64,000 nucleotides of DNA. Origin: Bolinopsis microptera. Its lineage: Eukaryota; Ctenophora; Tentaculata; Lobata; Bolinopsidae. Of the stretch, positions 10,128 to 56,300 are shown piece after piece. The notes below the pieces were generated by a model. The model saw only the letters and a program-made list of their open reading frames with translations. It made no database searches and was not told the origin of the DNA. Location of the stretch: assembly GCF_026151205.1 (NCBI RefSeq), contig NC_087077.1:15970983-16034982 (forward strand), written 5' to 3'. The position numbers and the translations under genes were made by a program. Each line of letters starts with the position of its first letter. Within the stretch, counting starts at the first letter, position 1.

Positions 10128-13100
10128 AGAGTAAAGATACAGTTAAACTGCGAAGGTACAACACCAAACCAACCTTACTCTATCTCCCAAAAACAACCTT
10201 CTCCTGGTCAGCCATGTCCCTCATCCTGCACTTGACCCCCGCAGAGGTCACAAGCCCATCGGAGCACAAATGAGCGAGAAACGGGGAAGCCTTAGCTACC
10301 GGGCTAAGGACTGCATCACTAGCAGCGAAATACGGATATACCCTCCCTTTTACATGCGTTCAACCGGCACCCGAACCACACGCTGTTTCTTAGACATAAC
10401 TTCCCACTTACATCAGTGTCTTCTCGCATCAACTGGCATCGGCAAGTGGCGACACTGTGTAGACTCAACCCTGAGCTTGATCAGAATCTTCAGTCACAAA
10501 CCTGACACCGTTTCGGGGCTTTCATTGCGATACGGTTTCCTGTCAGGTGCCCCAGCAGTCTCTCTTGGACCACCATCTGATCTGACAATCACCCGAGGAT
10601 ACCTGCTAGAGCTCGCGATTTACGACGAGTTAGCTTATGGCACCTCTGGCTGTTAGGTGAAGTCATAAAGCTCAAACAGCTCTCATCTCCCACTCTCTTT
10701 TCCTAGACAGCAGATAAATCCATCATGAACAATGGGCTGCATCCTTCCCACAATCTCTGACCAACTTCTTGAGGGCTCTCCCAGTCAGACCAATCTTCCT
10801 TGATGCACACTCCAAACTTGCTGCGACCACACCTCTAGCACCAACCTCAACAGCAAAGCTGAAACATGACCACCCATTAGCTTGTATTTCCGCTTGTAGA
10901 CTGTTATACCGATCAAGCTTCAGCTCATGGGATGCAGCTATTCTCTCTTCCGATGGTACTGTAAGCTCCCACCAGATTACTCTCTTGGAAGCTTTCGAGA
11001 AAAGAACCAAATCTGGTCTTAATCTGGTCGTTGCTATATCCGACGGGAATTTCAGCTGCTCATCCAGGTCTGCTAATACTATCCAATCAGTGGCCCCACT
11101 CAGAATCCCAAACTCACTGACTTTCGACCTCTTCACCTCCTTAAACCTCCCTCCTGCTGGAACAAACTCAATGGCTTTCCGAGTGACACAAGAGCTCTTC
11201 CTCTTGTTGACTCTCCGCTCACAATGGAATTTCACTTGGTCTGCTATTTGTTTAAGCACCTTATCGTGGCGCCATCGGTATCTCCCTTGACTTAGTGCCA
11301 CAGGACAACCAGCCAGAATATGCGGCACAGTTCCCAACTTGTCACCACACAGCTTGCACATCCCATCCTCATCCTCGCTCCACTTGGATGCTAAAGCTGG
11401 TGTAACAAGCGTGCCATACACAGCACTAAGCAGAAAACCGATTAATGAGTCCCCATACTTGAAGAGCGTGTGCCAGCTCATGTCAGTCCTTGTCACCAGC
11501 TCTCTCCAATTACCCCACCTGGACTGCATCTCCAACGTACCCAACTGCACCTCTCTTTCCTTCCTGATGTTCTCTTTAACCCTATCCAACACCTCCCTCT
11601 GCTGCTCCTTTTCTGACATCTTCTCCCAGGGCTTCTTCCAATCACCGAAACCAATTCCCGCTCTACTAAGAGGTTGCACCATACCTCGCACTGACTCACA
11701 CACCAAGTCTCTTTCAGCTTCGTGAAGCTGAGCATCTGCCTTCCAAACTCTCCCAGACCGCACCTGGGGTTGCACCGCTCTGATCAAAGCATCCTGAGAT
11801 GTTTGATATGACTGCAAGAGACGGCACTTTTCTACTTTCCAAGTGTCGGTTAGGCTGTCGATGGGGAGAGCAACACTGGATGAATGACTAAACAGGCAAG
11901 AGCTACTAAGCGTGTGTCCCACTCCTAGCCATTTTCTGAGATGACTGTTAGTTGTTTGCTCCCAGCGAGAAACAGTGCTGATCGGGATATCATAAATGGC
12001 AAGTGGCCACTTCATCTTTGGAAGGACCATATACTGATACCCCCAACATTTCTGCAGGCCGGTGAGGGAGCTAAGATCGAGTCTACTGAGGTATGTAACA
12101 AGATCCTCGTGTGTTTTCTCGATTATAGCTTTGTCCTTTCCTTCTGCCCGAATCCACCTCCCTAGAAACTTGATTGGTTTCTCAGATACATTCGGGATCA
12201 CCTCCCCGCTAAGCTGCAACCTCGCCTGACTACCTTCTGAACTCTCTACAACCCACTCCACTGTCACTCCCTTCTGGTAGACTAGTGCCCTAGACTTAGA
12301 CGACTTAAGCTTGAACCTTGACCACACAACGAACTCCTGATAAACATCAAGCAGGGTTTGCATATCTACCATTTTAGCCGTGGTAAGGCAGCTATCATCC
12401 ATAAACAGCTTAAGGGGTGGTATAGCTGTTCCATCCTTAATGTACTCGACACTCCTGGGTACCTTCATCTTCAAGTACTCGTCAGAAAGGTTCATGCATA
12501 GCACAAACAAGATCACCGAGATGACACAGCCCATAAATATTCCTATCTCGAACTGCTGCCACTCTGATGTCACTGTTTTAGAGGAGAATCTTCCGTAAAC
12601 CTCCGAGAAGTATTTGATTACGATGTTGATAACTTTCTCGGGGATATGATAGAAGCGGAGTGCTTTCACAATAAGTAAATGTGGAACAGCCCCGTAAGCA
12701 TTCGCCAAGTCTAACCAGACAACACTCAGATCCTTTCTCTTAACTCTAGCATCTTTGAGCACCTCCCACATAGCTCCAAAGTGCTCTGTACATCCGTGTA
12801 CACCAGGAACTCCACCCTTCTGCACAGAGAGATCCACATACCCGTTAGCGACAACAAAGTTGGTTAATCTTTTCGCCAACACAGCGAGGTATATCTTCCC
12901 CTGAATGTTTCCTAGCGATATAGGCCGTCCTGTGCTGGGTCCAAAATCTCCATCCGCCTTAGGAATGTAGATCCCTTCAAAGTACCTACAGTTGTCTGGG
13001 TACTCCTCAGCCTTGTAGCCTCCTCTCAGCACATGCCACAAGTTCTGAGATATTCCTGGACACCTCTTGTACACCGTATACGGGATGCCGTTGTTACCAG

Positions 13101-14318
13101 GTGAACTCTTACCTCTGGCTTTCTTAACAACCTCTTCGAACTCCTTCTTGGTTATATTCCTGCTGTCAAACCCCACAGTTGGGCTAGGAGCTGCCTCAGG
13201 TAACCCATTCAGAACGCCAAGAGGAACTGCCCGACTGGCATCACTATACGTATTAGACAGGTGGTTGTCTAACTCCTCCTTACTACACTTTAACTCTCCC
13301 ACAGGGCTTGGTTCAAGAATACCTTTAATAGCCTTGAAAGGATCTCGAGTAAACCCACCTCTCTGTCTCCTCACTTCTCTCTGCTTCTTCCTCCTTGCCT
13401 CTGCTCTTCTCAACTTACACAGCTTCTCTGCCAGGCCTCTAAGCAAAGCATTGAAACCATCCTTTACAGACTGGGAACAAGCTTTCCTGGCTTTCCTCCT
13501 CAGCACTCTCCTCTCAATGACCAACTTATCAATCTCCTCCTGTCTCCTGTTGGCAAACCTGAGACCTTTACCTGACTCTGCACCATCAATCACGAGCCCA
13601 AACCATTTCACACCATCATCATACACCGTGTCGCAATGGCTCACCATCTTCTCCTGGAATGGCTTCCCCTTCTGCTCCTGTCTCACTCTCTTACTAACAC
13701 TCACATCAAACTCTACCCACCTCTCATCCTTTGCGGCCGGCCACTTCACCTTGGGCTTCTTAGGGGCAGGTGGGTCAATAGAAGAACTCTTTGAAAGAAG
13801 GGCCTGGATATCCCTGGCACTGTGGTTATCGTCCTGGCCAGGTACCTCCACCGAACTTACAGATGCAACATCTAACGGTTGCTCCCCTTCCCAAGAGCAC
13901 TTCATCCTTCCTCGATGAATGTTCCTACCCCTTTCCGTTGTAAAGCGTCGACCACACACGCAGCTAAACTCCTCTGCTACATCAGAATCAGGGGTCGAGA
14001 GTTCTCGACTGTTTGTATAAGTCCTTTTCTGATTCGTGGCAGGACGTGGTGGGTGTCCACAAAGCCTTTATTTTTCACCCGGGCAACTCGTCCCTAAATA
14101 GGGACTCCCGGAACCTTAGAGAGGCAGGAGGCGCAGGACCGATGTGGACTGAGGTCTCCGCTCGTTAAAACCCCATCACACCTCTCTATTGCAGTAACCG
14201 CTGCAGGCACGGATCTCAACCCAACCCAGAAGCCAATTCCAAGCGTAGCATCTGTTCAAATCAGGTGGGCCTTACCCCACGGTAGCTGGCCAATCCCAGC
14301 AGTATCATAAAGTAGCAT
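10128..14318 (-). mobile_element. RLE-type non-LTR retrotransposon, near full length
   Basis: The element lies on the minus strand, with its 5' end near 14318 and its 3' end at 10128. The right limit is set where the second copy begins (14319, same AGAGTAAAG terminus as 10128). It has a leader of about 350 bases, one long open frame and a 3' untranslated region of about 595 bases. The single-ORF layout, N-terminal zinc finger, central reverse transcriptase and C-terminal restriction-like endonuclease place it with the R2/R4/NeSL/HERO group of LINEs, many of which integrate site-specifically. It probably inserts at one preferred sequence, but no repeated host target can be recognised here. Confidence 0.85.
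10723..13959 (-). CDS. Retrotransposon polyprotein: zinc finger, reverse transcriptase, restriction-like endonuclease
   Basis: The listed 1078-codon frame begins at a GTG. The open frame continues upstream without an ATG to a TAA near 14060, as in some R2-like elements where initiation is unconventional. Upstream residues complete a CCHC finger (C-V-C-G...H...C at residues 1-21). The reverse transcriptase has LDLANAYGAV at 416-425 and the catalytic FMDD at 519-522. A second C-C-H-C knuckle (C868, C871, H880, C885) precedes the endonuclease with R981-P-D983, E998 in WWELTVP and K1014, the PD-(D/E)xK core of RLE LINEs. The protein nicks the target and copies its RNA at the nick (target-primed reverse transcription). 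No internal stop is present, so it may be active. Frame ends before a non-coding tail shared with the neighbouring copy. Confidence 0.85.
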   Translation of the reverse strand: MCGRRFTTERGRNIHRGRMKCSWEGEQPLDVASVSSVEVPGQDDNHSARDIQALLSKSSSIDPPAPKKPKVKWPAAKDERWVEFDVSVSKRVRQEQKGKPFQEKMVSHCDTVYDDGVKWFGLVIDGAESGKGLRFANRRQEEIDKLVIERRVLRRKARKACSQSVKDGFNALLRGLAEKLCKLRRAEARRKKQREVRRQRGGFTRDPFKAIKGILEPSPVGELKCSKEELDNHLSNTYSDASRAVPLGVLNGLPEAAPSPTVGFDSRNITKKEFEEVVKKARGKSSPGNNGIPYTVYKRCPGISQNLWHVLRGGYKAEEYPDNCRYFEGIYIPKADGDFGPSTGRPISLGNIQGKIYLAVLAKRLTNFVVANGYVDLSVQKGGVPGVHGCTEHFGAMWEVLKDARVKRKDLSVVWLDLANAYGAVPHLLIVKALRFYHIPEKVINIVIKYFSEVYGRFSSKTVTSEWQQFEIGIFMGCVISVILFVLCMNLSDEYLKMKVPRSVEYIKDGTAIPPLKLFMDDSCLTTAKMVDMQTLLDVYQEFVVWSRFKLKSSKSRALVYQKGVTVEWVVESSEGSQARLQLSGEVIPNVSEKPIKFLGRWIRAEGKDKAIIEKTHEDLVTYLSRLDLSSLTGLQKCWGYQYMVLPKMKWPLAIYDIPISTVSRWEQTTNSHLRKWLGVGHTLSSSCLFSHSSSVALPIDSLTDTWKVEKCRLLQSYQTSQDALIRAVQPQVRSGRVWKADAQLHEAERDLVCESVRGMVQPLSRAGIGFGDWKKPWEKMSEKEQQREVLDRVKENIRKEREVQLGTLEMQSRWGNWRELVTRTDMSWHTLFKYGDSLIGFLLSAVYGTLVTPALASKWSEDEDGMCKLCGDKLGTVPHILAGCPVALSQGRYRWRHDKVLKQIADQVKFHCERRVNKRKSSCVTRKAIEFVPAGGRFKEVKRSKVSEFGILSGATDWIVLADLDEQLKFPSDIATTRLRPDLVLFSKASKRVIWWELTVPSEERIAASHELKLDRYNSLQAEIQANGWSCFSFAVEVGARGVVAASLECASRKIGLTGRALKKLVRDCGKDAAHCS

Positions 14319-35040: not shown

Positions 35041-36740
35041 ATGAAAGTAGTTTACTTTATTCTACCCTGGGTCATTATCACCGTTTTGTCCTCCAGCACC
35101 CATTCTTCAGGTGAAAAATGAGACTATTTTACGATACTATCTCCAAATAGCCTAGTCTGGATACGAATCTAACAGGACGTTTTCTACTCTATTAAAGGAA
35201 CTGGTGACTACTCACTTATTCCACTTGAAGCTTCCTCTTATCCTGTATATTTACCCTACACTAAGTTTCAGAGAACACACTAAAAGACACTACTATTACT
35301 ACAACACTAAAAGACACGTTCTCTATCTGGAGCGAAGACAGAGTCCCCGCCAACTCAGGAGCTCTACTGATGTCACGTGACCCTCTAACCCAGCCTCTAA
35401 ACGTGTGTAGAAGGAGCTCTAGTGGCAGCTACAAACCCAACACACAGTCTGCAGAGTGTATCTGTAGGGGACTAGGTTACCACAAGCTGGCCCTGGTTAC
35501 TAACCTGAAGTCTAAACTCCTGTACCAGTTCACGGAGAACTACAGTGGTGTGGTGGGAGGAGTGGAGGTGAGGTGTAGTCAGGTGGAGGGTCACGTGGTA
35601 TACAATGTTACACGTGACCTGTCCGCTGTGTGTTCAAGTACCTACTATTACACCTATCTCTCCTGCTCGTGTAATGCAGAGTATGTGGTCACTCCTACAG
35701 GATGCAGGAGATCACATCAGACTACTCTACCTCCTTCTGTGGTTACCACGGTTACTACTCCTCATCCAGCTCCTGTGGTTGGTAGTAGTACTGCACCTCC
35801 AGCTCCTGTGGTTGGAAGTAGTACTGCACCTCCAGCTCCTGTGGTTGGAAGTAGTACTGCACCTCCAGCTCCTGTGGTTGGAAGTAGTACTGCACCTCCA
35901 GCTCCTGTGGTTGGTAGTAGTACTGCACCTCCTGCTCCTGTGGTTGGAAGTAGTACTGCACCTCCTGCTCCTGTGGTTGGAAGTAGTACTGCACCTCCAG
36001 CTCCTGTGGTTGGTAGTAGTACTGCACCTCCTGCTCCTGTGGTTGGAAGTAGTACTGCACCTCCTGCTCCTGTGGTTACTACTGCACCTCCTGCTCCTGT
36101 GGTTGGTAGTAGTACTGCACCTCCAGCTCCTGTGGTTACTACTGCACCTCCAACTCCTGTGGTTGGTAGTAGTACTGCACCTCCATCTCCATTGTCTCCT
36201 GATGAACTAGATGAGCCCACTGAAAGTTCTGATCTAACAGAGGACAATACTGCAGCTACTGATCAGACTAATAGTGAAGTAGACTGTTCACATTGTGGAG
36301 GAGCTGATGAGGACTGTGGACAAGGAACTGTGAGTAGTGAGGATTGGGGAGGAGAACTAAGTGATAAGGATTGTGAGGGAGCTACAAAAGGAACTGCGAG
36401 TAGTGAGGATTGGGGAGGAGAACTAAGTGATAAGGATTGTGAGGGAGCCACAAAAGGATCAGACGATAAAACAAGTCACCAGAAAACAGGTTGTAAAGAA
36501 GCACTTGAACAGCTAACTATAATCCTGTACACAGTATCTAGTGTGGGTAGTGTTAGTGTTATTCTAGTTGTAGTTTGTACAGTGTACTGGTGTAGGAGGA
36601 GAGAGTCTGGTGCTACAGATAACATAGAGTCTGGTGCACTGAGAGGGGGTGGAGGGGGTCCTGGTGCTGGTGGTCTGGAGATGTCTGACAAACCAGGCTT
36701 TCAGAGAGTGTCCACGTGTGATCATAGTTGGGAAATGTGA
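35041..36740 (+). CDS. SRCR-like, mucin-type single-pass membrane protein
   Basis: Two exons: 35041-35110 encodes a signal peptide (MKVVYFILPWVIITVLSSS) and 35272-36740 the rest, joined in phase 1 across tcttcag|gtgaa and gtttcag|AG; together 512 residues. After the signal comes a cysteine-rich ectodomain with SRCR-like features (CICRGLGY, VVGGVEVRCSQVEGH, AVCSS, LSCSC). Next are about a dozen repeats of PAPVVGSSTAP, a Ser/Thr/Pro-rich mucin-like stalk likely to be O-glycosylated. Then come an acidic region with a duplicated 22-residue unit (TASSEDWGGELSDKDCEGAT), a membrane helix (VSSVGSVSVILVVVCTVYW) and a short Gly-rich cytoplasmic tail. SRCR proteins are typically surface receptors or adhesion proteins. 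The SRCR call is a pattern resemblance, with spacing differing from the classical domain. It lies in the large intron of the dystrophin-family gene, same strand. Confidence 0.7.
35765..36185. repeat. 33-bp coding minisatellite of the mucin-like stalk
   Basis: About twelve copies of a 33-base unit containing CCAGCTCCTGTGGTTGG and AGTAGTACTGCACCT; a few copies are shortened and end in ACTACTGCACCT instead. Units differ at only a few fixed positions (CCAGCT/CCTGCT, GGTAGT/GGAAGT), so the array is young and probably length-variable. Its composition leaves several other frames open on both strands; those are artefacts. Confidence 0.9.
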
Positions 36741-39124: not shown

Positions 39125-40078
39125 CTACCTGGATAGAGGACATAATATAATATAAGGTAACAGGTGATGTCCATATAAGGTAACACTACCTGGGGAGAGG
39201 GATAGTTTCATGGCTAGTACGTAGTGAAGGGTAAAGTTAACATCAAACATCAGATCTGAGAGGAAGAGGAGAGAGAGGAGTAGTGCGGCTGATTTTATGT
39301 GAGGGTAGATCATCTTACGAGTGCTGTTGGGGGTACTTTGGCTGGGGGACAGTGTGTTGTCAGACATAATGGCGGAAGGACGGTATTTTAGTACCATCTT
39401 TATCAGGTAGAGGACAGATATGAAGGATACTATCACCCCAACAAAATGTATAAGTTGTAAAGCAACAAGAAAAACAAAGCCATATCTGTTCAACGAATCC
39501 TCCAATTGTTTATCACCACTGAAATGCGCGTCCTTAACCTTCAACTGATAGTAGTACCCGATACCACCATAGCCTACAGCAGCAGCCCAAATACCCACAC
39601 ATAAGATTGTGATCCTCCTCGAATTAAGCACGTTTCTGGAAAGCTGGACCACTCGGTAAGGAATAACCACGTACATAAGCCGGATAATGTAGATAGGGAG
39701 GACAAAGCTGACTCTTACCACACGGAACACATCCTCCACTCCATTTGCTACGTAGGTGTAGAGGTTTGTTCCGTTGTAGAAATTCTGTCCGGATATTTTA
39801 AGAGGAGCTTTGCCGCTTTCGAAGAGAAAGAAAGTGTTAGCACTCATCATGAGGTGAGCAATGCAGATGTTAGCACAGAAAGTTGATGACAAGGGCGTGG
39901 TCCCCAGCCACTTAGACCTGATGTAGATGGTGATTAACAGTGAAATGTTAATGACAGCCCCTAGAAAAGAGAAGATGTGGTCTGCAACTGGGAGGATCTT
40001 ATTCGGAAAAGTGTTGTTAGTGTTGTAGTGAAGTTCTGATCTGTTCCGGCAGTTCCAGTTATCTAGAGGTTCCAGCAT
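39125..40078 (-). CDS. Rhodopsin-like seven-helix receptor, possibly short at TM7
   Basis: 317 residues. Hydrophobic segments lie at about 31-53 (TM1), 64-86 (TM2), 110-140 (TM3), 156-178 (TM4), 199-230 (TM5) and 262-292 (TM6). The N-terminus and first extracellular loop have N-glycosylation sites (NRS, NNT, NGT). TM3 runs into IIRLMYVVIPYR, at the place of the DRY motif, and the loop between TM5 and TM6 is Ser/Thr-rich and basic. This is the layout of a class A GPCR, but the ligand cannot be guessed. The C-terminus ends (LYGHHLLPYIILCPLSR) before a normal NPxxY-bearing TM7. A small intron from ...CTCCCCAG|gtagtg to ctatccag|GTAGG would instead add only RTVKYV. The 3' end may therefore be decayed or completed by an exon I missed. 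The gene lies antisense in the large dystrophin-family intron. Confidence 0.65.
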   Translation of the reverse strand: MLEPLDNWNCRNRSELHYNTNNTFPNKILPVADHIFSFLGAVINISLLITIYIRSKWLGTTPLSSTFCANICIAHLMMSANTFFLFESGKAPLKISGQNFYNGTNLYTYVANGVEDVFRVVRVSFVLPIYIIRLMYVVIPYRVVQLSRNVLNSRRITILCVGIWAAAVGYGGIGYYYQLKVKDAHFSGDKQLEDSLNRYGFVFLVALQLIHFVGVIVSFISVLYLIKMVLKYRPSAIMSDNTLSPSQSTPNSTRKMIYPHIKSAALLLSLLFLSDLMFDVNFTLHYVLAMKLSLSPGSVTLYGHHLLPYIILCPLSR

Positions 40079-40799: not shown

Positions 40800-41698
40800 A
40801 CCCATCGTAAAGTTCGGAGATATTTAAATTAATGGTTGGGACGTAGGGGTATAACTGACTTCAAGAGAAGCTAAAGCCTGAAATAGGATATTAATATGGT
40901 CCCCCTAAATCCTCAGGAGAGTTCCAAAAACAAACATTCCTATCGTCCCTTGTCCACAGGGAGGTTAGATTTGCCAACTTCTACTATCAGATACTTTTTA
41001 AACACGTTGCTAGGCAACGTTTAGGTTAACACGTTGATACAATCCAATTAGGCAACATATAGGTGCGGTTAAATGTTTCTACTAAACGTAGCCATTGGTA
41101 CAATCCTCGTCAGTTGTAGCATACCAAGAAACATTCCGATCAGAACGACCACCTTTATCTTTTAGTGCTATTTAACCTTTCAGCGAACCACCCTTACTAC
41201 CCGTTATCAGTGCGTGATGTCCATAATTGACATTTTAGGGGATGTTGACAGTTCCAAATAAATTCTTTCCATTCATCTCTATAATCTACATATTTGTTTA
41301 AATGCTCAAAATTTAAATATTATTTTACTTTTGTTGCGAATTCCTTTCTTTTAAAAGAGATTGTTTAGACAAGGTTAGCTGTGAAGAGTTTGTGTCAATG
41401 TTTCGTTGTTGGTAGCTGCTTTTCTATAGAATATAACACTTCTTGTATCGTTAAACTGTTATTTTTAACAGTTCATAAATAACTTTGTAGATAACATTAT
41501 AAATAACTTTATGAAAAACTTCATGAATAACTTTATAAATAACTTTATAAATAACTTTATGAAAAACTTCATGAATAACTAACATTGTCGTTAACATACT
41601 AACCTTGAAAAAATGTTAGTAAGTAAGTAAATATGCTCTACTGCGATAGTATGATTATTCATTATAAAATTATTCACAAGTTTACCTCGGTAGATAAA
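40800..41698. other. Intergenic spacer between the receptor and coiled-coil genes
   Basis: No gene was seen. It contains a single TTGACATTTTAGGGGATG at 41227-41244, identical in core to the subterminal motif of the 22.4-24.1 kb DNA element, and repeats of AATAACTTTATAAATAACTT and GAAAAACTTCATG at 41470-41583. Confidence 0.5.
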
Positions 41699-44600
41699 AT
41701 GTACTCCTCCCCTGCAACTCAACCTCGTTCCTCCTACGGTCCACTCCGCAAACGTTCCTCCTACGGTCCACTCCGCAAACATTCCTCCTACGGTCCACTC
41801 CGCAAACATTCCTCCTACGGTCCACTCCGCAAACCTTCCAACATGTCCCACATTTACAGAGTGAGAAACTATGGCTACGGTATAACCAACACCAGAGCAG
41901 CCATGCCCACTGCAACCTACCCCCGGTACCAGACAGTGGTGTTTGTAGAGCGGGGACAAGTCACGTGTCCTACCAAGGAAACTGCTGTTAAAGAGGTCAC
42001 CACTGCTACGAACAACAGGAGGTTGATGAGGTGGGATCCTACCAGGTGGGACCCTACTAGGTGGGACCCTATTAGACTCTCTCGTTACCAGGAGGAGGAG
42101 GGTGGTGTCTATAGTTACAGTTACTTGTACGGTGAAATACACTATGGAACACACGATACAATAAAGCATGGATCGAATGGTGGAATAAATGGTGAAATGA
42201 ATGGTGGAATGAACAATTACTTAAACTGTGAAGTAAACGTTGGAACGAGCCGTGGAATGAACGGGAAGAACTCGCGTGAAATAAAGATAGTCAGCTACCC
42301 AAGAGCAAAGCCCGTTATTGCTTATTGGAATATGGGCCCCGTTTATGCTCAGAAGTTCACATATTGTTGTGATTTTGATGAGTCCGCCCTGGTGAACAGA
42401 AAAAAGTTTAAATTCTCGGGTGACAATGAACTAGACGAATACGAGAAGAATAAACAAGAAAGATTAAGATTGACTGAAAAGAGAGACGAGAAAGAGGCAG
42501 CAGAGAGGGAGAAACGTCGTCTGGAACGTCTGGAACGGGAGACGCTGGAAAAGGAGACAGTAGCCCTCGAGCAGAGAGAATGGGAAAGACTGGAACAGCA
42601 ACGTTTAGATAAGCTCCGGGTGACTAGGGACGAAAAAGCGAGGTTAAGGATGGAGAAACTGAGGAGGCAACAGGAAGAACAGGAGAGAGAAAATATCAGA
42701 AGACATGCTGAGCGAGAAGCAGCTGCTAGGCAGCGCGAGGAGCAGGAACTTGCAGAGACGTTACGGTTACAAAGGGAGAGGGAGGAGCGAGAGAGGCTGG
42801 CTAGGGAGAATAAGGGGAACAATGAGAGAGAGCGAAAAGAAAAGGAGGCTCAAAGAGAGGCAGAGAAACAGGCAAGAATAAAAGAAAAGAAAGAAAAGGA
42901 GGAGCAAAAGGAGAGGGAGAGAAGAGAAAGAGAGGAGACAGAAAGACTGAGGAGAGAACAACAAGAGGAAGAAAGGTTGAAGAAGGAGAAAGAAGAAGCG
43001 GATCGTAGAGCAGTAGAAAACGCAGAGAGATTATCTCGAGAAGAGGCAGAAAGACTGGCTAAAATAGAAGCCAAGAAAGAAAAGGAGGAACAGGAGGAGA
43101 GGGAGAGAAGAGAAGGAGAGGAGACAGAAAGACTGGAAAGGGAGAAAGAGGAGAGGGAGAGAAAAAGACAAGAGATGGAGAGATTGAAGAAGGAAAAAGA
43201 GGATGAGAGGGAGAGAGAAACAAGAGCTTGCAGAAAGGGATCGATTAAAGAACGAGAAAGAAGAAGCAGAGCGCAGAGCAAAAGAAAACGCAGAGAGGTT
43301 AGCTAAAGAAGGTACAGAAAGGTTAGCTAGAGAGGATGAGGAAAAGAGGATGAGGTCTGAAGAGGAGACAGAAGAAATAGAGAGACTGGCTATAGAAAAG
43401 GCTGAAGCAGACCGTATTGCAGCAGAACAAGCCGAACGGTACAGGATTGAGGCGGAACTCAGGGCTAAAGATGAGGCTGAAAGGCTTGCGAAGGAGAACG
43501 CAGAAAGAGAACTAGAAGCGAGAGAAAAAACTGAAAGGGAAGCTAGGGAGACGAAAGAGAAAGCTGAACGAGAAGCGAGGGATAATGCTAAACGAGAAGC
43601 TAGTGAAAAGGCAGAAATAGAAGCAAAAGAAAAAGCAGAAAGAGAAGCACGAGAAAAGACAGAAGGTGAAGCTAGAGAACAAGCTGAGAGTGATGCAAAG
43701 GAGAAGGAAGCACTGGTACGTCTTGAGAAAGCTAAAAAAGAAAGCGATAGTAATAGAATTGAGGCAGAATATAAGGCTAATAAGGAAGCTGAAATGCTTG
43801 CTCAGGAGAACACAGAAAGTAAAGCGAAAGAGAAGGATGAAAGAGAAGCGAAAGAGAAAGCTGAAAGAGAAGTGAGACAAAAAGCTGAGAGAGAAGCTAA
43901 GGAGGCAAAAGAGAAAGCTGAAAGAGAAGCGGATAATAAAGCTGAAAGAGAAGCTAAAATAGCGAAAGAGAATGCTGAAAGAGAAGCAAGAGAAAAAGCT
44001 GAAAGAGAAGCCAAGGAGGCGGGAGAGAAGGCAGAAAGAGAAGCGAAAGAGGAAGCTGAAAGAAAAGCGAGAGAAAAAGCTGAGAGAGAAGCTAAGGAGG
44101 TGAAAGAGAAAGCTGAAAGAGAAACTAAAGAGAAAGCTGAAAGAGAAGCAAGAGAAAAGGCTGAAAGGGAAGCTAAGGTAGCGAAAGATAATGCTGAAAG
44201 AGAAGCAAGAAAAAAGGCTGAAAAAGAATCTAAGATAGCGAAAGATAATGCTGAAAGAGAAGCAAGAAAAAAGGCTGAAAGAGAAAACAAGGAGGCGAAC
44301 GAGAAGGCAGAAAGAGAATCGAAAGAGAAGGTTGAAAGAGAAGCACGAGAAAAGGCTGAAAGGGAAGCTAAGGTAGCGAAAGAGAATGCTGGAAGAGATG
44401 CGAAAAGGAAGTTTGAAAGAGAAGCAAGAGAAAAGGCTGAAAGAGAAGCTAAGGAGGCGAAAGAAAATGCTCGAAGAGAAGCGAAAGAGAAGGCAGAAAG
44501 AGAAACGAAAGAAAAAGCAGAAAAAGAAGCACTAGTGAAGGCAGAACGTGAGGCAAAGCGGAGAGAATCACTGGAACGAGAAAGAGCAGAACGAGAAAGA

Positions 44601-45023
44601 AAGATGAGGGAACGTCTGGAGAAAGCAGAAAAACGGGAAGAGGAGGAGAAGCAGAAGGAAATAAATATCGGTAAGGTGAAATGGGGCTTGCCAGAGAAAG
44701 ATAGAGAATATGGCACGGCGGGGAAGTTGGAAATCCCTGAATTTGGTGAGTCAGAACACGAGAGTCAACAGAGAAATGTGGGCAAATTAAAAGTTCCCGC
44801 CAATTTAGAGAAGAAAAAACCACCACCTTTCAAGAGAACACTTTCTCAGGTAGGAAAATTAAAAATCCCCAACTTAGAGAAAGGTCTAGAAGATAGACCT
44901 AAAGTAAAACCCCAGTTCAAAAGAAGGCTGTCACAAGTGGGCACGTTTGATGTGGAGGCCAACAACGCAGTCGCACAAGCGCCTCTTACCAGACGTTTGT
45001 CCTGGAAGAAAAAGGAGATATAA
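41699..45023 (+). CDS. Giant charged coiled-coil / single-alpha-helix protein, one frameshift
   Basis: The likely start is the ATG at 41699 (MYSSPATQ). The N-terminus has four RSSYGPLRK repeats and three RWDPTR repeats. From about 42430 the protein is almost purely E/K/R/A/Q heptads (EREEQERE, then AEREAKEKAERE units), the composition of a stable single alpha helix or long coiled coil. The reading frame changes within the GA-rich stretch 43203-43245: the frame from 41699 stops at 43306, while the heptads continue in the frame ending at 45023. No GT-AG intron explains it, so it is an indel in a GA run or an assembly error. The tail has GKL(K/E)(I/V)P motifs and three basophilic kinase-like sites (KRTLSQ, KRRLSQ, TRRLSW). 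A cytoskeletal, ciliary or junctional scaffold role is a guess. It lies within the large dystrophin-family intron. Confidence 0.65.
41731..41838. repeat. 27-bp coding repeat (RSSYGPLRK)
   Basis: Four near-identical copies of a 27-base unit containing TCCTCCTACGGTCCACTCCG at the start of the coiled-coil gene, differing only at the codon for the ninth residue (R, H, H, P). Confidence 0.9.
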
Positions 45024-47319: not shown

Positions 47320-50300
47320 GGCACCAAATCAGAGAGTATTAAAGACTTGACCGCATTGGTAAAAACATACTTCAGACCCAAATCCAGCAAACCTTCCACA
47401 AGGTTAGTGTCTTATGAGCTCCTAGAGCTAGTTTTTAATAGCTCAAGTCAGAATAAGCTACAATATAGAATAATGCTGGTGCCTGGTAATATCTCAATCT
47501 CGACAAATTACAAGATCAGGGAAAGATTCACATTCGCCAAAAAAACTGAGAATATCTGAATATACCCTAAGTATCTGCATCCTTTGCTCCTCTGAGAGAT
47601 CCAGGCGGAGTCTAGCTCAAAAGCACGCGCCAAATTATTATTACTGACTAGTGTGCGCAACCACATGTGCGCGGCTTAAAATAATTGAATCGAAATGACA
47701 TTGTATATAAATTATTGCCGGTAGTGGATTTCTTTCGATCAAAAGCTGGTAGCTCCTAATTAATTATTCATGAGGTCAATTCTAACACCGCACAAGTTAT
47801 CTGTAAATCTGAAATACCGGAAGATATGAAGCAGAACCCATTCGTGCAGAGCTGACACGACATATGACAACATTGCAATCTAATTTTGATCCGATGTTAT
47901 AGCGACTTAAACCGAAGTAAAATAAGTGATAAGCATCTAAATAAAAAAGAGTAGAATATGATTATTAACAGTTTATACAAGTTAAAATGTCCATACATTT
48001 CAGGGTACCCTCAGAAGGCAGACCTAAATCTACCGTGTCTCAGGTGAGATGCAGTTAGTTTATCATTAAATATAACAATGAGAGTGTGGTGTTACCTTAT
48101 ATAGGAATACATTTGGTCAGTTAGTTGAATAATTGGTCACTGGGCAAAAATTCCATCAAATCGGTCAAATTTCTGTTCAGAAATTTTCATATTTGAAAAT
48201 GGGACAGACTTTGTAAAATCAGAATTTTCGTTTTGTAAAGCTTTCTGTAGTAAGCTTCCTCCGACCGGAATCAAACTTCCAGCACCTCAATTGTGTCGTA
48301 TGGCATCTATAGTTGAGTGGCTAATTGGTTTCTGGAGAAGAATTCGGTCAAAACTGCTAAATTTCGGCCTGGCCAATTTCGTCTTCAAAAACTGAAAATG
48401 GGACAAGAAATGGGAGAATATGATTTTTCCATTTTGTGGGGTATTTTGACTTGGAGTACCTCAATTTGGTCTCATACCATCCTCAGTTAGCTGAATAATT
48501 GGTCACTGGGCAAAAATTCCATCAAATCGGTCAAATTTCTGTTCAGAAATTTTCATATTTGAAAATGGGACAGACTTTGTAAAATCAGAATTTTCGTTTT
48601 GTAAAGCTTTCTGTAGTAAGCTTCCTCCGACCGGAATCAAACTTCCAGCACCTCAATTGTGTCGTATGGCATCTATAGTTGAGTGGCTAATTGGTTTCTG
48701 GAGAAGAATTCGGTCAAAACTGCTAAATTTCGGCCTGGCAAATTTCGTCTTCAAAAACTGAAAATGGGACAAGAAATGGGAGAATATGATTTTTCCATTT
48801 TGTGGGGTATTTTGACTTGGAGTACCTCAATTTGGTCTCATACCATCCTCAGTTAGCTGAATAATTGGTCACTGGGCAAAAATTCCATCAAATCGGTCAA
48901 ATTTCTGTTCAGAAATTTTCATATTTGAAAATGGGACAGACTTTGTAAAATCAGAATTTTCGTTTTGTAAAGCTTTCTGTAGTAAGCTTCCTCCGACCGG
49001 AATCAAACTTCCAGCACCTCAATTGTGTCGTATGGCATCTATAGTTGAGTGGCTAATTGGTTTCTGGAGAATAATTCGGTCAAAACTGCTAAATTTCGGC
49101 CTGGCCAATTTCGGCTTCAAAAACTGAAAATGGGACAAGAAATGGGAGAATATGATTTTTCCATTTTGTGGGGTATTTTGACTTGGAGTACCTCAATTTG
49201 GTCTCATACCATCCTCAGTTAGCTGACTAATTGGTCACTGGGCAAAAATTCCATCAAATCGGTCAAATTTCTGTTCAGAAATTTTCATATTTGAAAATGG
49301 GACAGACTTTGTAAAATCAGAATTTTCGTTTTGTAAAGCTTTCTGTAGTAAGCTTCCTCCGACCGGAATCAAACTTCCAGCACCTCAATTGTGTCGTATG
49401 GCATCTATAGTTGAGTGGCTAATTGGTTTCTGGAGAAGAATTCGGTCAAAACTGCTAAATTTCGGCCTGGCCAATTTCGTCTTCAAAAACTGAAAATGGG
49501 ACAAGAAATGGGAGAATATGATTTTTCCATTTTGTGGGGTATTTTGACTTGGAGTACCTCAATTTGGTCTCATACCATCCTCAGTTAGCTGAATAATTGG
49601 TCACTGGGCAAAAATTCCATCAAATCGGTCAAATTTCTGTTCAGAAATTTTCATATTTGAAAATGGGACAGACTTTGTAAAATCAGAATTTTCGTTTTGT
49701 AAAGCTTTCTGTAGTAAGCTTCCTCCGACCGGAATCAAACTTCCAGCACCTCAATTGTGTCGTATGGCATCTATAGTTGAGTGGCTAATTGGTTTCTGGA
49801 GAAGAATTCGGTCAAAACTGCTAAATTTCGGCCTGGCCAATTTCGTCTTCAAAAACTGAAAATGGGACAAGAAATGGGAGAATATGATTTTTCCATTTTG
49901 TGGGGTATTTTGACTTGGAGTACCTCAATTTGGTCTCATACCATCCTCAGTTAGCTGACTAATTGGTCACTGGGCAAAAATTCCATCACATCGGTCAAAT
50001 TTCTGTTCTTTTTATTAAATACTTTTCAAATTTTACAGAGTACAGCAATAGATGAATATAAAATAGAATCGTTCAAAATATCGCCCCCATCTGTAAAATA
50101 TGATGGGCACCCAAACACGGTAAACACATAGTGAACTATGTCCGCAGTAACTTGGACCCATTACATCGAATTAATCTAAATCCAAAAATTTATGAAAAAC
50201 TATTTAAGAACAAACAAATCCATGGTGAATAACTGTGGATATAGAGTCAAAATTGGTATTTCAATACGTCAAATTCCAGATACATTAGATACAGGTCTGA

Positions 50301-53300
50301 AATGGTCATTAATGTGTGAGAAGGTGTGCGGGTGAAGTGTGATATGATGTTGAAAGTATAGGAAGGTAGATACAAAATTAATAAAACAAAAATAATAATA
50401 ATATGGGGAGCAAAGAGACTAGGCTAGACTGTTGTTTCACTATCCAATAAACATTTCCATAGATGCTTAGTGACCTCAGCTTTGAAAAGACTAGTAGACA
50501 CAATCTGTCTTACCTGTAAAGGGAGTCCATTCCACAGTATATGGGTTCTGTAGAAAAATGATTTTGCCAGTGGGCTATTTGAGGTACATGTGGTGTGTGA
50601 ATTCTGACTTAACTTAGGTAAAATTGATGACACAATAGACAGACTGTCGAGGTGGCAACGTCTTAGTCGAGAAGTGCCCTGATATAAAGAGAGATAGTGA
50701 GGCAGCGATACAGGAATTAAATTGTTAAGAACTTTGTGGAAAAAAATAAGATCATTCAAGTCAAACTTTTGAGACAAAGGGAGAATGTCGACAAGCTTGC
50801 ACTTTTTGACATATTGCTCAGGTGGATAACTGCGGCCCTCTTCATACAGAATCCATTTAATAGCTCTCTTTTGGAGACTTTCTAATTTATCACTAAGTGA
50901 TTTATTACAAGGGCGCCAGATTATGGAACAATTTTCGAATTGGCTACGAACCAGGGAGAGGTAAAGCGCCCGGCGACGTTTCTGATCAATGACAATATGG
51001 CCATCTCTTCTGACCATACCAAGTTGTTGGCAGGCCTTAGTATAAATTCTGTCGCACTGACTATTCCAACTTAGCTTAGGAGTAACATCGACTCCAAGAT
51101 CTTTTTCTAACTCTACATACACAAGAGGAGAGCCATCAAGATTATATGCGAATGGAGGAGATAAAGATGGTTTTCCTGAAACAATAAGCACTTTACATTT
51201 TGCTGGATGAAATCGCATTTTGTTTCTTAGTGCCCAGTCAGAGAGATAGTCTATATCCATTTGTAAATTAGTATTATCAGAAGATGAATGTATTTTACGC
51301 CAGATTTTTGTATCATCGGCATACAAAACAATATCAGTATTATCCGAAAGGCCAAGAGGAATATCATTGATAAACAATACAAAAAGTAAGGGACCAAGAA
51401 TAGAGCCCTGGGGGACACCAGAATTAACTGAGAGGGTAGATGACATCTCATTACCAATAACCACTCTTTGGTAACGGCCTTGAAGGTAATTGGTAAGAAA
51501 TTTGAGAAGTGTACCATCAATGTTATATAAGGTCTTTAGCTTATGAAGAAGGATATCATGATTTACAGAATCAAATGCCTTAGCAAAATCAAAATACACA
51601 ACATGATTGATAATGTTTTCGTTAAGAGACAATGCCAGGCTATCACAAAAGTCAACCATATTGGTTGTGCATGACTTGTGCTCTAGAAAACCATGCTGCC
51701 TGGGATCAAGAAGGGTACTTGTCAAAGAAAGCAGTTTACGTTTAACAATGCGCTCAAAAACTTTCATGACTAAACAAGTAAGGGATATTGGTCTATAGTT
51801 TTCAACCTCACTTTTCTTACCTTTCTTAAATATTGGGACAACATTTGCAAGTTTCCATTCTTGTGGAATGTAGCCGCTGTTGTAAGATCCACGAAAAATG
51901 CATGTTAGAGGGTAAGCTAAACCTACGGAACAATTTTTGAGAATTTTACCGTGTATGCCATCTGGTCCCTGGGCTTTATTTGAATTAATATTTGAAAGAA
52001 GCTTACGAACATCCCGATGATCGAAGTCAATATCAAAATCAACATCATTGACATAGGAGATGTCAGTGTCATAAAGTGAAGGATCCGAAAACTGGTTATA
52101 AAAGAAAGAATTGAAAAGTTCAGCTTGAGCTTTGGGTTTGAACCGAAGCTGTCCAGAATAACTAACACAATTAGGAATACGGCAGGAGTTAGATTTATAC
52201 TTAACATGTGACCAAAACTTCTTAGTTATAAGCGCTGGATCATCACTATTGAAAAGATTGTCTCTTATTTTGGCTGATGAAAGCCTCTTAAAATCTTTAC
52301 GGCTAGTAACAAACTTTAACTCATCAGAAATAGAACCAGAAATTTTAAATTTAGCTCTGAGTCTATCTTTTTTACGGCATGAAGAAAAAAGTTCACTGTC
52401 GAACCACGGGGGTTGAAACTCTGATTTAATAGTTACTTTAGGAATATGTATATCAACTAAATTCATAATGCAGTCTTTAACTAACTTCCAAGACGAATCA
52501 GGATCTAGGCATTCTAGGACTTGCCAATTAATCGAGCATAATTCACGATTAATCATGTCCCAGTTTGCTTTCTTATAATTATAGATTTTACGTTTAGGAG
52601 TTTTCTTGCGGGAAAAGGAGCTTTTAATTGAAAAAGTGACAGGAAAATGATCAGATTTGCACACGGAATGAGGATCACAGACATTCAAGTTATCAATTGT
52701 GTTATCATAATTACTGAGAAGAATGTCTAATGTATTACCACTTTTATGGGTGGGTGATGTGATCAACTGGGAGAGAGAAAGATCACTGAAAGAATCTATG
52801 AAGGATTGCTCAATAGGTACGGTACTGGATGAAGATAGCCAGTCTGTATGGGGGAGATTAAAATCACCAATAACATAGATTTTAGGGGGATTCTTTTTGG
52901 AAACTAGCTTGCGAATATAACTAACTATGACATCATGATTAGGTAACCCAAGAGTTCCTACTCTATAACAAGTACAGATTACAATACTCTCTTTGTTAGG
53001 AAAAGCAATTTTAACGGCAAGCATTTCTGCACCTAGGCTAACTGGTAGTCGGGTTGTAGTGACATCGAGATCAGACCGAACAGCCAAAAGAACACCACCT
53101 CCATTTTCCCTAAACTTTTTAGGGTTATTAGGATCTTGAGGATGAGTCTTTCTCGTGCGGTCATTGCGGAAGATTTCATATTGAGAAGAAGGAAAGATTT
53201 CGTTGCTAGAAATAGATTTTTTGAGCCAAGTCTCATTTAGGGCAATTATGTCAGGCTGCTCTATGTTAGCAAAGGATTGAAGTTCGGAAATCTTATTACC

Positions 53301-56300
53301 ATCAAGAAGGGGATGGGAGGAGCTTAGGTTACTGAAAGGAATAAGACCTTGGACATTTTGGTAGAGTACAGATAGGGAGTTGGGACCTGGATTAAGCATA
53401 GAAGGATTAACAAGAGTTATCAAAAGAAAGTTAAGAGAGAAAACCCAAAGAATGAATAAAGATACTAGACGCCTGAGGCGGCTGGAATACTTGACTCTAT
53501 TCATCTTACCAGGGAGAAGAACATTTCTTATAAACCATGAGGAGATAATTACAAAGAAAAGTTTGATGTGGGAGCAAGCAAGAAATGGTATAAGATAACG
53601 TGGGCTGTCAAGGAGTAGAGAGGAATGAATATTAGAATCTAGGGGGAATACGGTGTTCATGGACCTAGTTGTGGAGAGAAGAATTGGGAGAAGGTAAGTC
53701 ATGATGAGAGAATAGAAGAGAAACATATGATTATGAGAATTGTGGTTGATGTGTGGAGTGTATGGGGACTTGAATGTGTAAATTTTGTTAGGTATAAACG
53801 TGTTGATATGTATATGTGCATTTCTTGACTGTGTACGAGGCCTTTTGCATGCAAAAAGACCTATTCTAAGTCTAAACGATTCATTGTCTAACATATGGGA
53901 AAATGGGCAGTGACCGAATGTACCTGAAATAGGAGGCATAAAATTGAGAAAAAGATTAAATCAGAGATTTGTTTGAGTTTTAATTTTAGGCGCAACGTCT
54001 TAATCAAATATTAAATGAAAGAAAAGATCAAAGATTTAAATTCCCAGAAAATTATTTACAACCCTGTCAAAACTGTGTTCGTTTACAACAAACTTAAGCC
54101 AAGTGGACAATAAACCTACTCCTCTCATGTTGAGATGAAGCCAATCATGGTATAGAAGTTCATTACAGGATCTAAAGTCTCGAGTTAAAAAGTCTGAGAA
54201 ACAGTCTAAGAACACGCAATTATTATTTAGGCATAAGTCTTTAAGTAGATTATTAAAATCTAGAACATTCTTTGCTATGTAGGAATATAAACACTTAATA
54301 GGAAGACAACATTGGATAATTATAATTGCAGCGGGAAATAACTGCTTAGTGGTGTCAATTAAGTCATTAAGATACTTCCTAAGGAACTGAACCCCATACT
54401 TAGAATGTTTTATGTCATTTGTACCAACACTCAATATAATCTTTTCAATATCGTCAGCTTCTGCAGCTGCATGAGTTTTATGAAAATGCTGAATATTTTC
54501 AGTGATATCTCTAATTTTTGCACCACTTTGGGACACATTGATTACTTTCCTTCCCCGGAATCCCAACTTATTTGTCCGTACAAGTTTTGTCATTGACGTA
54601 CCAAACAGGACAGTGGTTTTTCTGCTCTTCGGTTTTCTTGGAGCATTTCGGTAGTAAAGGGTTGGTGTTGAGGTGGTGGTGGGCGGCATAGGAATTGTAG
54701 TGAGGACATTCTGCTCCCTGACTACATTTGTATCTGTCTTCGGTATCTGGCAGCGAAAAGATAAGCTATACCGAGTCTCCTTAGCTGATCTCTCTGCACG
54801 AACCTTGTGAAGACAATATTCCTGACACCCCGGTTTCATAATATACAAACTACAGTCCTTTGGGGTGATATGGCATTTACTGTTACATCGCTTATCCCCA
54901 TTTTCTGGAATTATGTCGAGGGTCCTCTCAGCTCCAAATGAAACTACATAAATACCTTGCGACTGGTCAAGAGACACCTCGTCGTCGTTGTGGTACCTAG
55001 TTGCACAAGCACCAGACTTGTACATGCTTGCTAGGCATGAGTTTAGCTTGCAGCCAAACTTGGAGTTGATATCATGCATAAGCTCTGATATCCCAGGATA
55101 ATTTAAAATATCGATTGGCTCCTTAGTCGTGGTGTGTCCATTTGAGGAAGACCATACATATTCTTCTCCAGTGGAAGTGAGCCACTTTGTGGCAGTTTTC
55201 ACAGCAGTTTGCTTGGCCATAAGTGTTTCAAGTTCAGACATCAACGTGCCATGTTGAACACTCTTGTTTTGAACAAAATCTGAATGCAACTCCAAGAAGT
55301 CCTCGCATTTAACAGAATCCCTCTTAAGTTTCATGACATTCTCAACACTGGCCTTAAGAGCTTTCAGCTCTTTTAATGAAAACGAGTTTAAAACATTGGT
55401 AACAGAATTCAGATCCATAGTGAAGGAAAGAGGGAGGAGAAGATGGCGGTGAGGGAGGAGAAAATGGCGAAGTCAATACTGTAGCCCAGGAAGTAGATGC
55501 GTTGCTTAGGATACAAACGGTCACGTCATAGTCTCTTCTATCGCTTTGACATTGGGACCTAATAAATGTATTTAATTGTAGTTGTGAAAATAGTTTAAAA
55601 CTGAAATTCAGAAATTTTCATATTTGAAAATGGGACAGACTTTGTAAAATCAGAATTTTCGTTTTGTAAAGCTTTCTGAAGTAAGCTTCCTCCGACCGGA
55701 ATCAAACTTCCAGCACCTCAATTGTGTCTTTTAGCATCTAAAGTTGAGTGGCTAATTGGTTTCAGGAGAGGAATTCGGTCAAAACTGCTAAATTTCGGCC
55801 TGGCCAATTTCGTTTCAAAAACTGAAAATGGGACAAGAAATGGGAGAATATGATTTTTCCATTTTGTGGGGTATTTTGACTTGGAGTACCTCAATTTGGT
55901 CTCATACCATCCTCAGTTAGCTGAATAATTGGTCACTGGGCAAAAATTCATCAAATCGGTCAAATTTCTGTTCACAAATTTTCATAGGCTCCTCAATCGA
56001 AATGTCACCCTCGTTGCTACATATGTCTTATCATCGAGAACCTTCACACTTATACAGATTTACACACCACTCTGACAACTACATTCAGTACGAATCAGCG
56101 GGAGACTACGAGACCATCACAACAGAGGACTGGTTTGCACGGAAAGGGAGACTCCCTCTCCAGACTCCCCTGCAGTACACATCCTGCCCTGCTCTTCAGG
56201 TTACTGATGAGAAACACATGCTGCTCCTTCAGCAACAAAACAACAACCTAGCCGCGCAGGTGGACAGGTTAGAATCTGGTTTATTTTACCTTATGTGGGC

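Follow-up and report, generated by a model that had tools for sequence, protein, structure and literature searches.

The window, by which we mean the whole 64-kb stretch of DNA that was analysed, carries a 5598 bp LINE element on its minus strand. The element interrupts an array of 366-bp satellite units (48117–50008 and 55607–55986): satellite matches stop at 50008 and restart at 55607, and the unit on the element's 5′ side is 96–97% identical to other units. On comparison with an uninterrupted neighbouring unit, GAA is present at both element junctions, which could represent a 3-bp target-site duplication or microhomology. The element comprises:

50009–55606, minus strand: whole LINE element
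55419–55606, minus strand: 5′ UTR, defined by side-by-side comparison of the upstream sequences of 25 copies (L001–L025)
54036–55418, minus strand: ORF1, 460 aa, an uninterrupted frame consisting of an N-terminal part, AlkB domain, linker and SGNH hydrolase
54741–55283, minus strand: AlkB 2OG-Fe(II) dioxygenase domain, ORF1 residues 46–226 (phmmer, PHROG, structure model and Foldseek)
54624–54740, minus strand: linker, ORF1 residues 227–265, changing at a roughly neutral rate among copies
54084–54623, minus strand: SGNH hydrolase domain, ORF1 residues 266–445 (PF13472 and the ZfL2-1 esterase 4c1b)
50424–53939, minus strand: ORF2, 1171 aa from the first ATG, EEP (APE-like) endonuclease and reverse transcriptase (Pfam)
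50009–50423, minus strand: 3′ UTR, with one AATAAA close to the 3′ end (read from the sequence)

ORF2 starts 96 bases past the ORF1 stop and matches the Pfam models PF14529 (9e-13), PF03372 (3.6e-7) and PF00078 (1.2e-28). With EEP and RVT_1 domains in ORF2, dispersed copies and differing 5′ flanks, the element is a non-LTR retrotransposon (LINE); its one link to the CR1/L2 clades is the match of the ORF1 esterase to ZfL2-1. Across the 25 copies the 5′ UTR differs little except at its 5′ tip, which is variable, and some copies (for example L011) lack part of the 5′ sequence. The tip ahead of this common 5′ UTR comes in two kinds: the window copy, L014 and L019 share one, and most other L001–L025 copies that are not truncated have the second. 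The family is recently active.

Elsewhere in the window, a second reverse transcriptase ORF (10723–13959, minus strand, 1078 aa, RVT_1 E 2e-16) is around 20% identical to the RT of the element over 306 columns. At 41633–45023 on the plus strand, frames of 557 and 606 aa overlap; both are very rich in Glu/Lys/Arg repeats and have no Pfam match. A 456-aa frame at 35370–36740 (plus strand) has Pro/Val/Ser/Thr tandem repeats and a hydrophobic stretch near its C-terminus; by eye it resembles a mucin-like membrane protein. Also by eye, a 317-aa frame at 39125–40078 (minus strand), with several hydrophobic stretches and no Pfam match, looks receptor-like.

ORF1 was of interest as it had been predicted, from the sequence, to join an AlkB-like dioxygenase to an SGNH hydrolase. 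The reading frame lies exactly where it had been placed (54036–55418, minus strand, 460 aa), and the predicted catalytic residues H143, D145, H204, R216, R222, S275, N334, D425 and H428 were all found at those positions. In a phmmer search of PDB chains, human ALKBH3 was the top match to the dioxygenase region (E 3.4e-9, ORF1 residues 107–226), followed more weakly by ALKBH2, and the PHROG family “alkylated DNA repair” matched residues 46–223 with an E-value of 1.8e-16. H143, D145 and H204 correspond to the AlkB metal ligands, and R216 and R222 to the RxxxxxR 2OG motif. A profile built from seven ORF1 sequences detected both ALKBH3 (3.6e-14) and the ZfL2-1 esterase 4c1b (2.5e-11). The window ORF1 escaped PF13532, the AlkB model of Pfam; the sole Pfam dioxygenase model to report it was PF03171, under its cut-off (E 0.0042). 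An NCBIfam search gave no match. We attribute the PF13532 miss to divergence, because the model passes its cut-off in all four of the diverged ORF1s scanned (4.3e-16, 4.4e-17, 4.6e-15 and 1.8e-13; see below); it is likewise above cut-off in 6/6 other transposon frames scanned.

A structure model of ORF1 residues 45–230 was generated with an alignment (A4) of 15 AlkB sequences, one bacterial and 14 from viral contigs, the latter taken from 14 of 16 viral AlkB loci. The model has a mean pLDDT of 89.4 and a pTM of 0.87, and the alignment-free, single-sequence model a mean pLDDT of 33.5. Since the helper sequences are cellular and viral AlkBs, the model leans towards the AlkB fold, and it confirms the fit rather than providing independent proof. 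The best Foldseek matches in the PDB were ALKBH3 bound to ssDNA (8.1e-12) and ALKBH2 (1.0e-11), with E. coli AlkB and ALKBH6 (both ~1e-7) and ALKBH5 (8e-7) lower down; viral matches comprised giant-virus AlkBs and AlkB domains inside plant RNA virus polyproteins. The proposed AlkB assignment is thus significant in the phmmer, PHROG and Foldseek searches alike. Where ALKBH3 has NxY and RVNLTFR, the window ORF1 has SxY and RYSLSFR, differences which suggest that the substrate range may differ.

The SGNH hydrolase domain matches PF13472 (E 4.3e-12), the solved ZfL2-1 LINE esterase 4c1b (E 1.9e-4; phmmer, PDB chains) and bacterial SGNH hydrolases. Its characteristic residues are S275, G299, N334, D425 and H428. 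In an alignment of seven ORF1s from this and related families, S275, G299, N334 and H428 are invariant, in keeping with the original prediction for three of them; the fourth predicted residue, D425, varies across the wider family, being replaced by K, N and G in the relatives L031, L032 and L033, respectively. In sum, ORF1 joins an SGNH esterase to an AlkB domain of the ALKBH2/3 type that retains its iron and 2-oxoglutarate residues. If active, the AlkB domain is predicted to carry out 2OG/Fe(II)-dependent dealkylation.

A search of the 264.65-Mb genome with ORF1 gave at least 94 matches (92 of 889 candidates scored), and with ORF2 at least 40 (39 of 6913 candidates scored). At least 25 of the ORF1s (L001–L025) are complete, uninterrupted 460-aa frames that are 95–100% identical to the window ORF1; all are distinct in sequence and have different 5′ flanks. 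The nine predicted catalytic residues of the two domains are unchanged in 25/25 of these intact copies, while G299 is kept in 24/25.

These 25 copies were used to examine selection, a sample that leans to conserved copies, as it takes only the intact 460-aa frames among the 94 ORF1 matches. Distinct nonsynonymous and synonymous changes numbered 19 and 18 in AlkB, 25 and 33 in the SGNH domain and 20 and 6 in the linker, giving per-site ratios of 0.28, 0.21 and 1.1, with the linker serving as an internal control. Against neutral sites, binomial p values were 1.9e-4 for AlkB, 3.7e-9 for SGNH and 1.0 for the linker; AlkB compared with the linker alone gave a Fisher p of 0.064. One pair runs against constraint: the window copy and L020 differ by seven nonsynonymous changes and one synonymous change in AlkB. 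Between related pairs of more diverged elements, AlkB dN/dS was 0.18 (L031–L032), 0.12 (L047–L049) and 0.047 (L048–L053). The AlkB domain is not evolving neutrally, within the family or between families, and is under purifying selection.

The genome contains several diverged relatives of the element. Four of these (L031–L034) have intact ORF1s 27–29% identical to the window ORF1, each upstream of an ORF2 of the EEP–RT type that is 46–51% identical to that of the window; in two copies of the L033 type (L037 and L045), ORF2 is split in two frames. Equivalents of H143, D145, H204, R216 and R222 are invariant in 7/7 aligned ORF1s, two pairs of which are near-identical, and in 16/16 aligned AlkB sequences (13 transposon, two host and one bacterial). 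They are fixed in families whose AlkB domains are 17–36% identical to that of the window, and the HxD...H ligands are retained in the diverged families aligned as well as in the intact copies.

More distant elements carry the same domain. L047 and L049 have longer ORF1s (646- and 611-residue frames) with AlkB, an SGNH match under the Pfam cut-off and the start of an EEP ORF2 downstream. The L047 AlkB is closest to ALKBH3 by sequence (2.3e-9), and its endonuclease is only 25% identical to that of the window element over the matched part, which indicates a distinct LINE group. L052 resembles these two over ORF1, the part covered. In L048 and L053, both cut at the locus end, AlkB lies towards the N-terminus and is followed by a long region in which only the SGNH serine could be aligned; Pfam found no SGNH domain in the fetched part. 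L071, from a further multicopy SGNH family (frame 521), was sampled as a possible SGNH-type ORF1 lacking AlkB. It proved to have an AlkB domain preceding the SGNH start (BLASTP 2e-15; hhalign 99.8%), although the piece gave no Pfam match, PF13532 included. Profile searches, structure, conservation and selection all agree with the predicted fusion of AlkB and SGNH domains in ORF1 of an endonuclease–RT LINE.

Across the genome, PF13532 gave at least 151 matches (150 of 587 candidates scored), many of which share repeated scores and frame lengths. Eight were read in letters: six are transposon-type and two are host genes, namely ALKBH2 (L050, 5.3e-55) and ALKBH3 (L051, 3e-40). Over the AlkB columns, the window domain is 25% identical to host ALKBH3 and 21% to host ALKBH2, and in a tree with weak deep nodes the window family does not nest with either. 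Neither this identity nor the lack of nesting in that tree supports the idea that the host ALKBH3 gene was captured recently. Searches of viral contigs with ORF1, ORF2 or profile A1 yielded no relatives outside the genome; neither did a search of other genome contigs with ORF1, and profile A1 retrieved one bacterial AlkB from these, a 193-aa frame (L046).

AlkB is also found in Helitrons. We hand-picked 10 AlkB loci from the 151 for an adjoining Helitron or SGNH match, and in six of the 10 AlkB shares its reading frame with Helitron_like_N (PF14214), with the same open-frame length for both domains (2225–3388 codons; the AlkB of L054 lies in a 3366-codon frame). At a seventh locus, AlkB and Helitron_like_N are in different frames, 4.5 kb apart. 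Five of the seven Helitron loci also have an SGNH match in the reading frame of AlkB, 1.25–1.5 kb to its N-terminal side. In one of the five a stop must lie between or near the two domains, because the open-frame length differs; for the other two Helitron loci, SGNH was absent among the matches listed (150 of 424 SGNH candidates in the genome were scored). The remaining three AlkB loci have SGNH on the N-terminal side, in another frame in one case, and no Helitron domain among the matches listed. Most of the 43 Helitron_like_N matches have no AlkB among the matches listed. The L054 AlkB is closest to ALKBH3 by sequence (5.1e-11) and groups with that of the LINE L034 (support 94/92, 42% identity) in a tree with weak deep nodes, and an exchange of AlkB between LINEs and Helitrons is possible.

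Judged from the positions of the profile matches, Helitron frames have SGNH followed by AlkB, the reverse of the order in the LINE ORF1. Such a reversal between LINEs and Helitrons, which are unrelated classes, would mean that the pair as such is selected for. AlkB and SGNH might then form a co-operating two-enzyme cassette that transposons assembled more than once. It would be a general transposon-encoded means of cleaning or unmarking element nucleic acid in its single-stranded state, in which the esterase either localises the complex or removes a second chemical mark by hydrolysis. We regard this as possible but speculative.

For the LINE, the view we favour, tentatively but ahead of the others, is that ORF1 supplies two enzymes in a single protein, presumably as part of the element RNP. 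Its AlkB domain would oxidatively strip m1A, m3C and similar methyl lesions of the Watson–Crick face from the element's nucleic acid while this is single-stranded. Lesions of the m1A/m3C type hinder reverse transcription. ALKBH3 and ALKBH2 are of the m1A/m3C repair type, and their being nearer to the window domain than the m6A eraser ALKBH5 favours such RT-blocking lesions over m6A. Helitrons pass through single-stranded DNA and need no RNA intermediate, and the presence in them of the same pair is a better fit for single-strand repair than for an RNA-only role. Cleared in this way, the template RNA and perhaps also first-strand cDNA would stay readable by the RT during target-primed reverse transcription, and AlkB could both bind and clean the element RNA. 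According to the available part of one report, AlkB, which removes m1A and m3C from DNA and RNA, is employed to make tRNA easier to sequence (PMC7968990). Following the proposal made for ZfL2-1, the esterase would position the RNP at membranes or release it there; the available part of PMC3905857 describes RepBase esterase ORF1 proteins without a recognised RNA-binding domain and favours membrane targeting for the esterase.

Counter-silencing, the role proposed for AlkB in orchid Ty3/Gypsy elements, is conceivable here but not likely; AlkB would remove m6A or another regulatory mark of the host from the element RNA and so lift host surveillance. ALKBH5 is among the structural matches, but Helitrons carry AlkB too, although they have no need for an RNA intermediate. 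m6A demethylase activity is reported for an AlkB encoded by an orchid Ty3/Gypsy element; that domain, however, is described as ALKBH5-like in the available text (PMC9289625), whereas ALKBH3 and ALKBH2 are nearer here by around five orders of E-value. We consider it unlikely that the domain acts in protection of element DNA, repairing 3mC or oxidising bases methylated by host DNA methyltransferases or chemically, on cDNA, integrating ssDNA or chromosomal copies. The ALKBH2/ALKBH3-type fold, with DNA-bound structures as best matches, and the occurrence of AlkB in Helitrons, which are DNA elements, would suit such a role, as would the co-evolution of DNMTs with ALKBH2. ALKB2 is also treated as part of the DNA methylation machinery in the available part of PMC8857917. 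Against this, the LINE AlkB sits in the ORF1 protein, the presumed RNA packager. A very unlikely reading is that AlkB is mainly a nucleic-acid-binding module, with catalysis secondary; it could replace the RNA-binding part missing from esterase-type ORF1 proteins, yet binding alone would not require five catalytic residues to stay fixed at 17–36% AlkB identity. A chance match, misassembly or host AlkB gene adjoining a LINE, for which the PF13532 miss might be cited, can be dismissed on the copy evidence: 25 intact copies have different 5′ flanks, further families also encode both domains in a single ORF ahead of EEP–RT, and the host ALKBH2 and ALKBH3 genes sit elsewhere in the genome.

If the AlkB domain is active, the element would encode its own nucleic-acid demethylase within a LINE ORF1 protein, a class with poorly understood roles. 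It is not a one-off, with at least 151 AlkB profile matches in a single 265-Mb genome, and Helitrons, with the same AlkB–SGNH pair, serve as a natural replicate. One can now test whether transposition is limited by alkyl or methyl marks on the RNA or ssDNA of transposons and whether transposons counter these enzymatically, and such domains would yield ready-made enzymes for copying modified RNA. None of the open-access titles, abstracts and passages covered describes AlkB in LINE or Helitron proteins, and the nearest case is the orchid Gypsy element; an earlier annotation under a bland name is possible. The available parts of krill, tubeworm and cnidarian genome papers, considered as possible descriptions of AlkB in transposons, concern host ALKB2/ALKBH2 only.

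Among known systems, ZfL2-1 and other LINEs with type IV esterase ORF1s (CR1/L2 clades) likewise have an SGNH esterase ORF1 upstream of an EEP–RT ORF2. As described in the available parts of PMC3905857 and PMC4120745, neither of which mentions AlkB, type IV ORF1s combine the esterase with a coiled coil or a zinc-finger/leucine-zipper, and the AlkB domain of the window ORF1 falls outside this published type. The orchid Ty3/Gypsy element also encodes an AlkB dioxygenase, for which RNA binding and m6A demethylation are reported, but it is an LTR element with a separate ALKBH5-like ORF in the text available (PMC9289625); the window element is a LINE whose AlkB is ALKBH2/3-like and fused to the esterase in ORF1, and with its EEP–RT ORF2 and ALKBH3/2 as nearest relatives it does not belong to the orchid AlkB-Gypsy type. 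The AlkB domains of plant RNA viruses, which are among the structural matches, likewise occur in proteins of mobile RNA replicons; those proteins are listed as replicases, helicases or polyproteins, in contrast to a LINE ORF1 with SGNH. ALKBH3 and ALKBH2 remain the nearest solved structures and sequences to the window AlkB, and share its five catalytic residues. For the esterase, GDSL ORF3s of bdelloid LTR and Penelope-like elements show that an esterase ORF is common to unrelated retroelement classes (PMC5408684, in the available text of which AlkB or oxygenase is mentioned 0 times). In fish, an SGNH hydrolase gene (texim) is similarly tied to a Helitron, described without AlkB in the available part of PMC4021074, whereas here SGNH, AlkB and Helitron_like_N occur together in one open frame at several loci.
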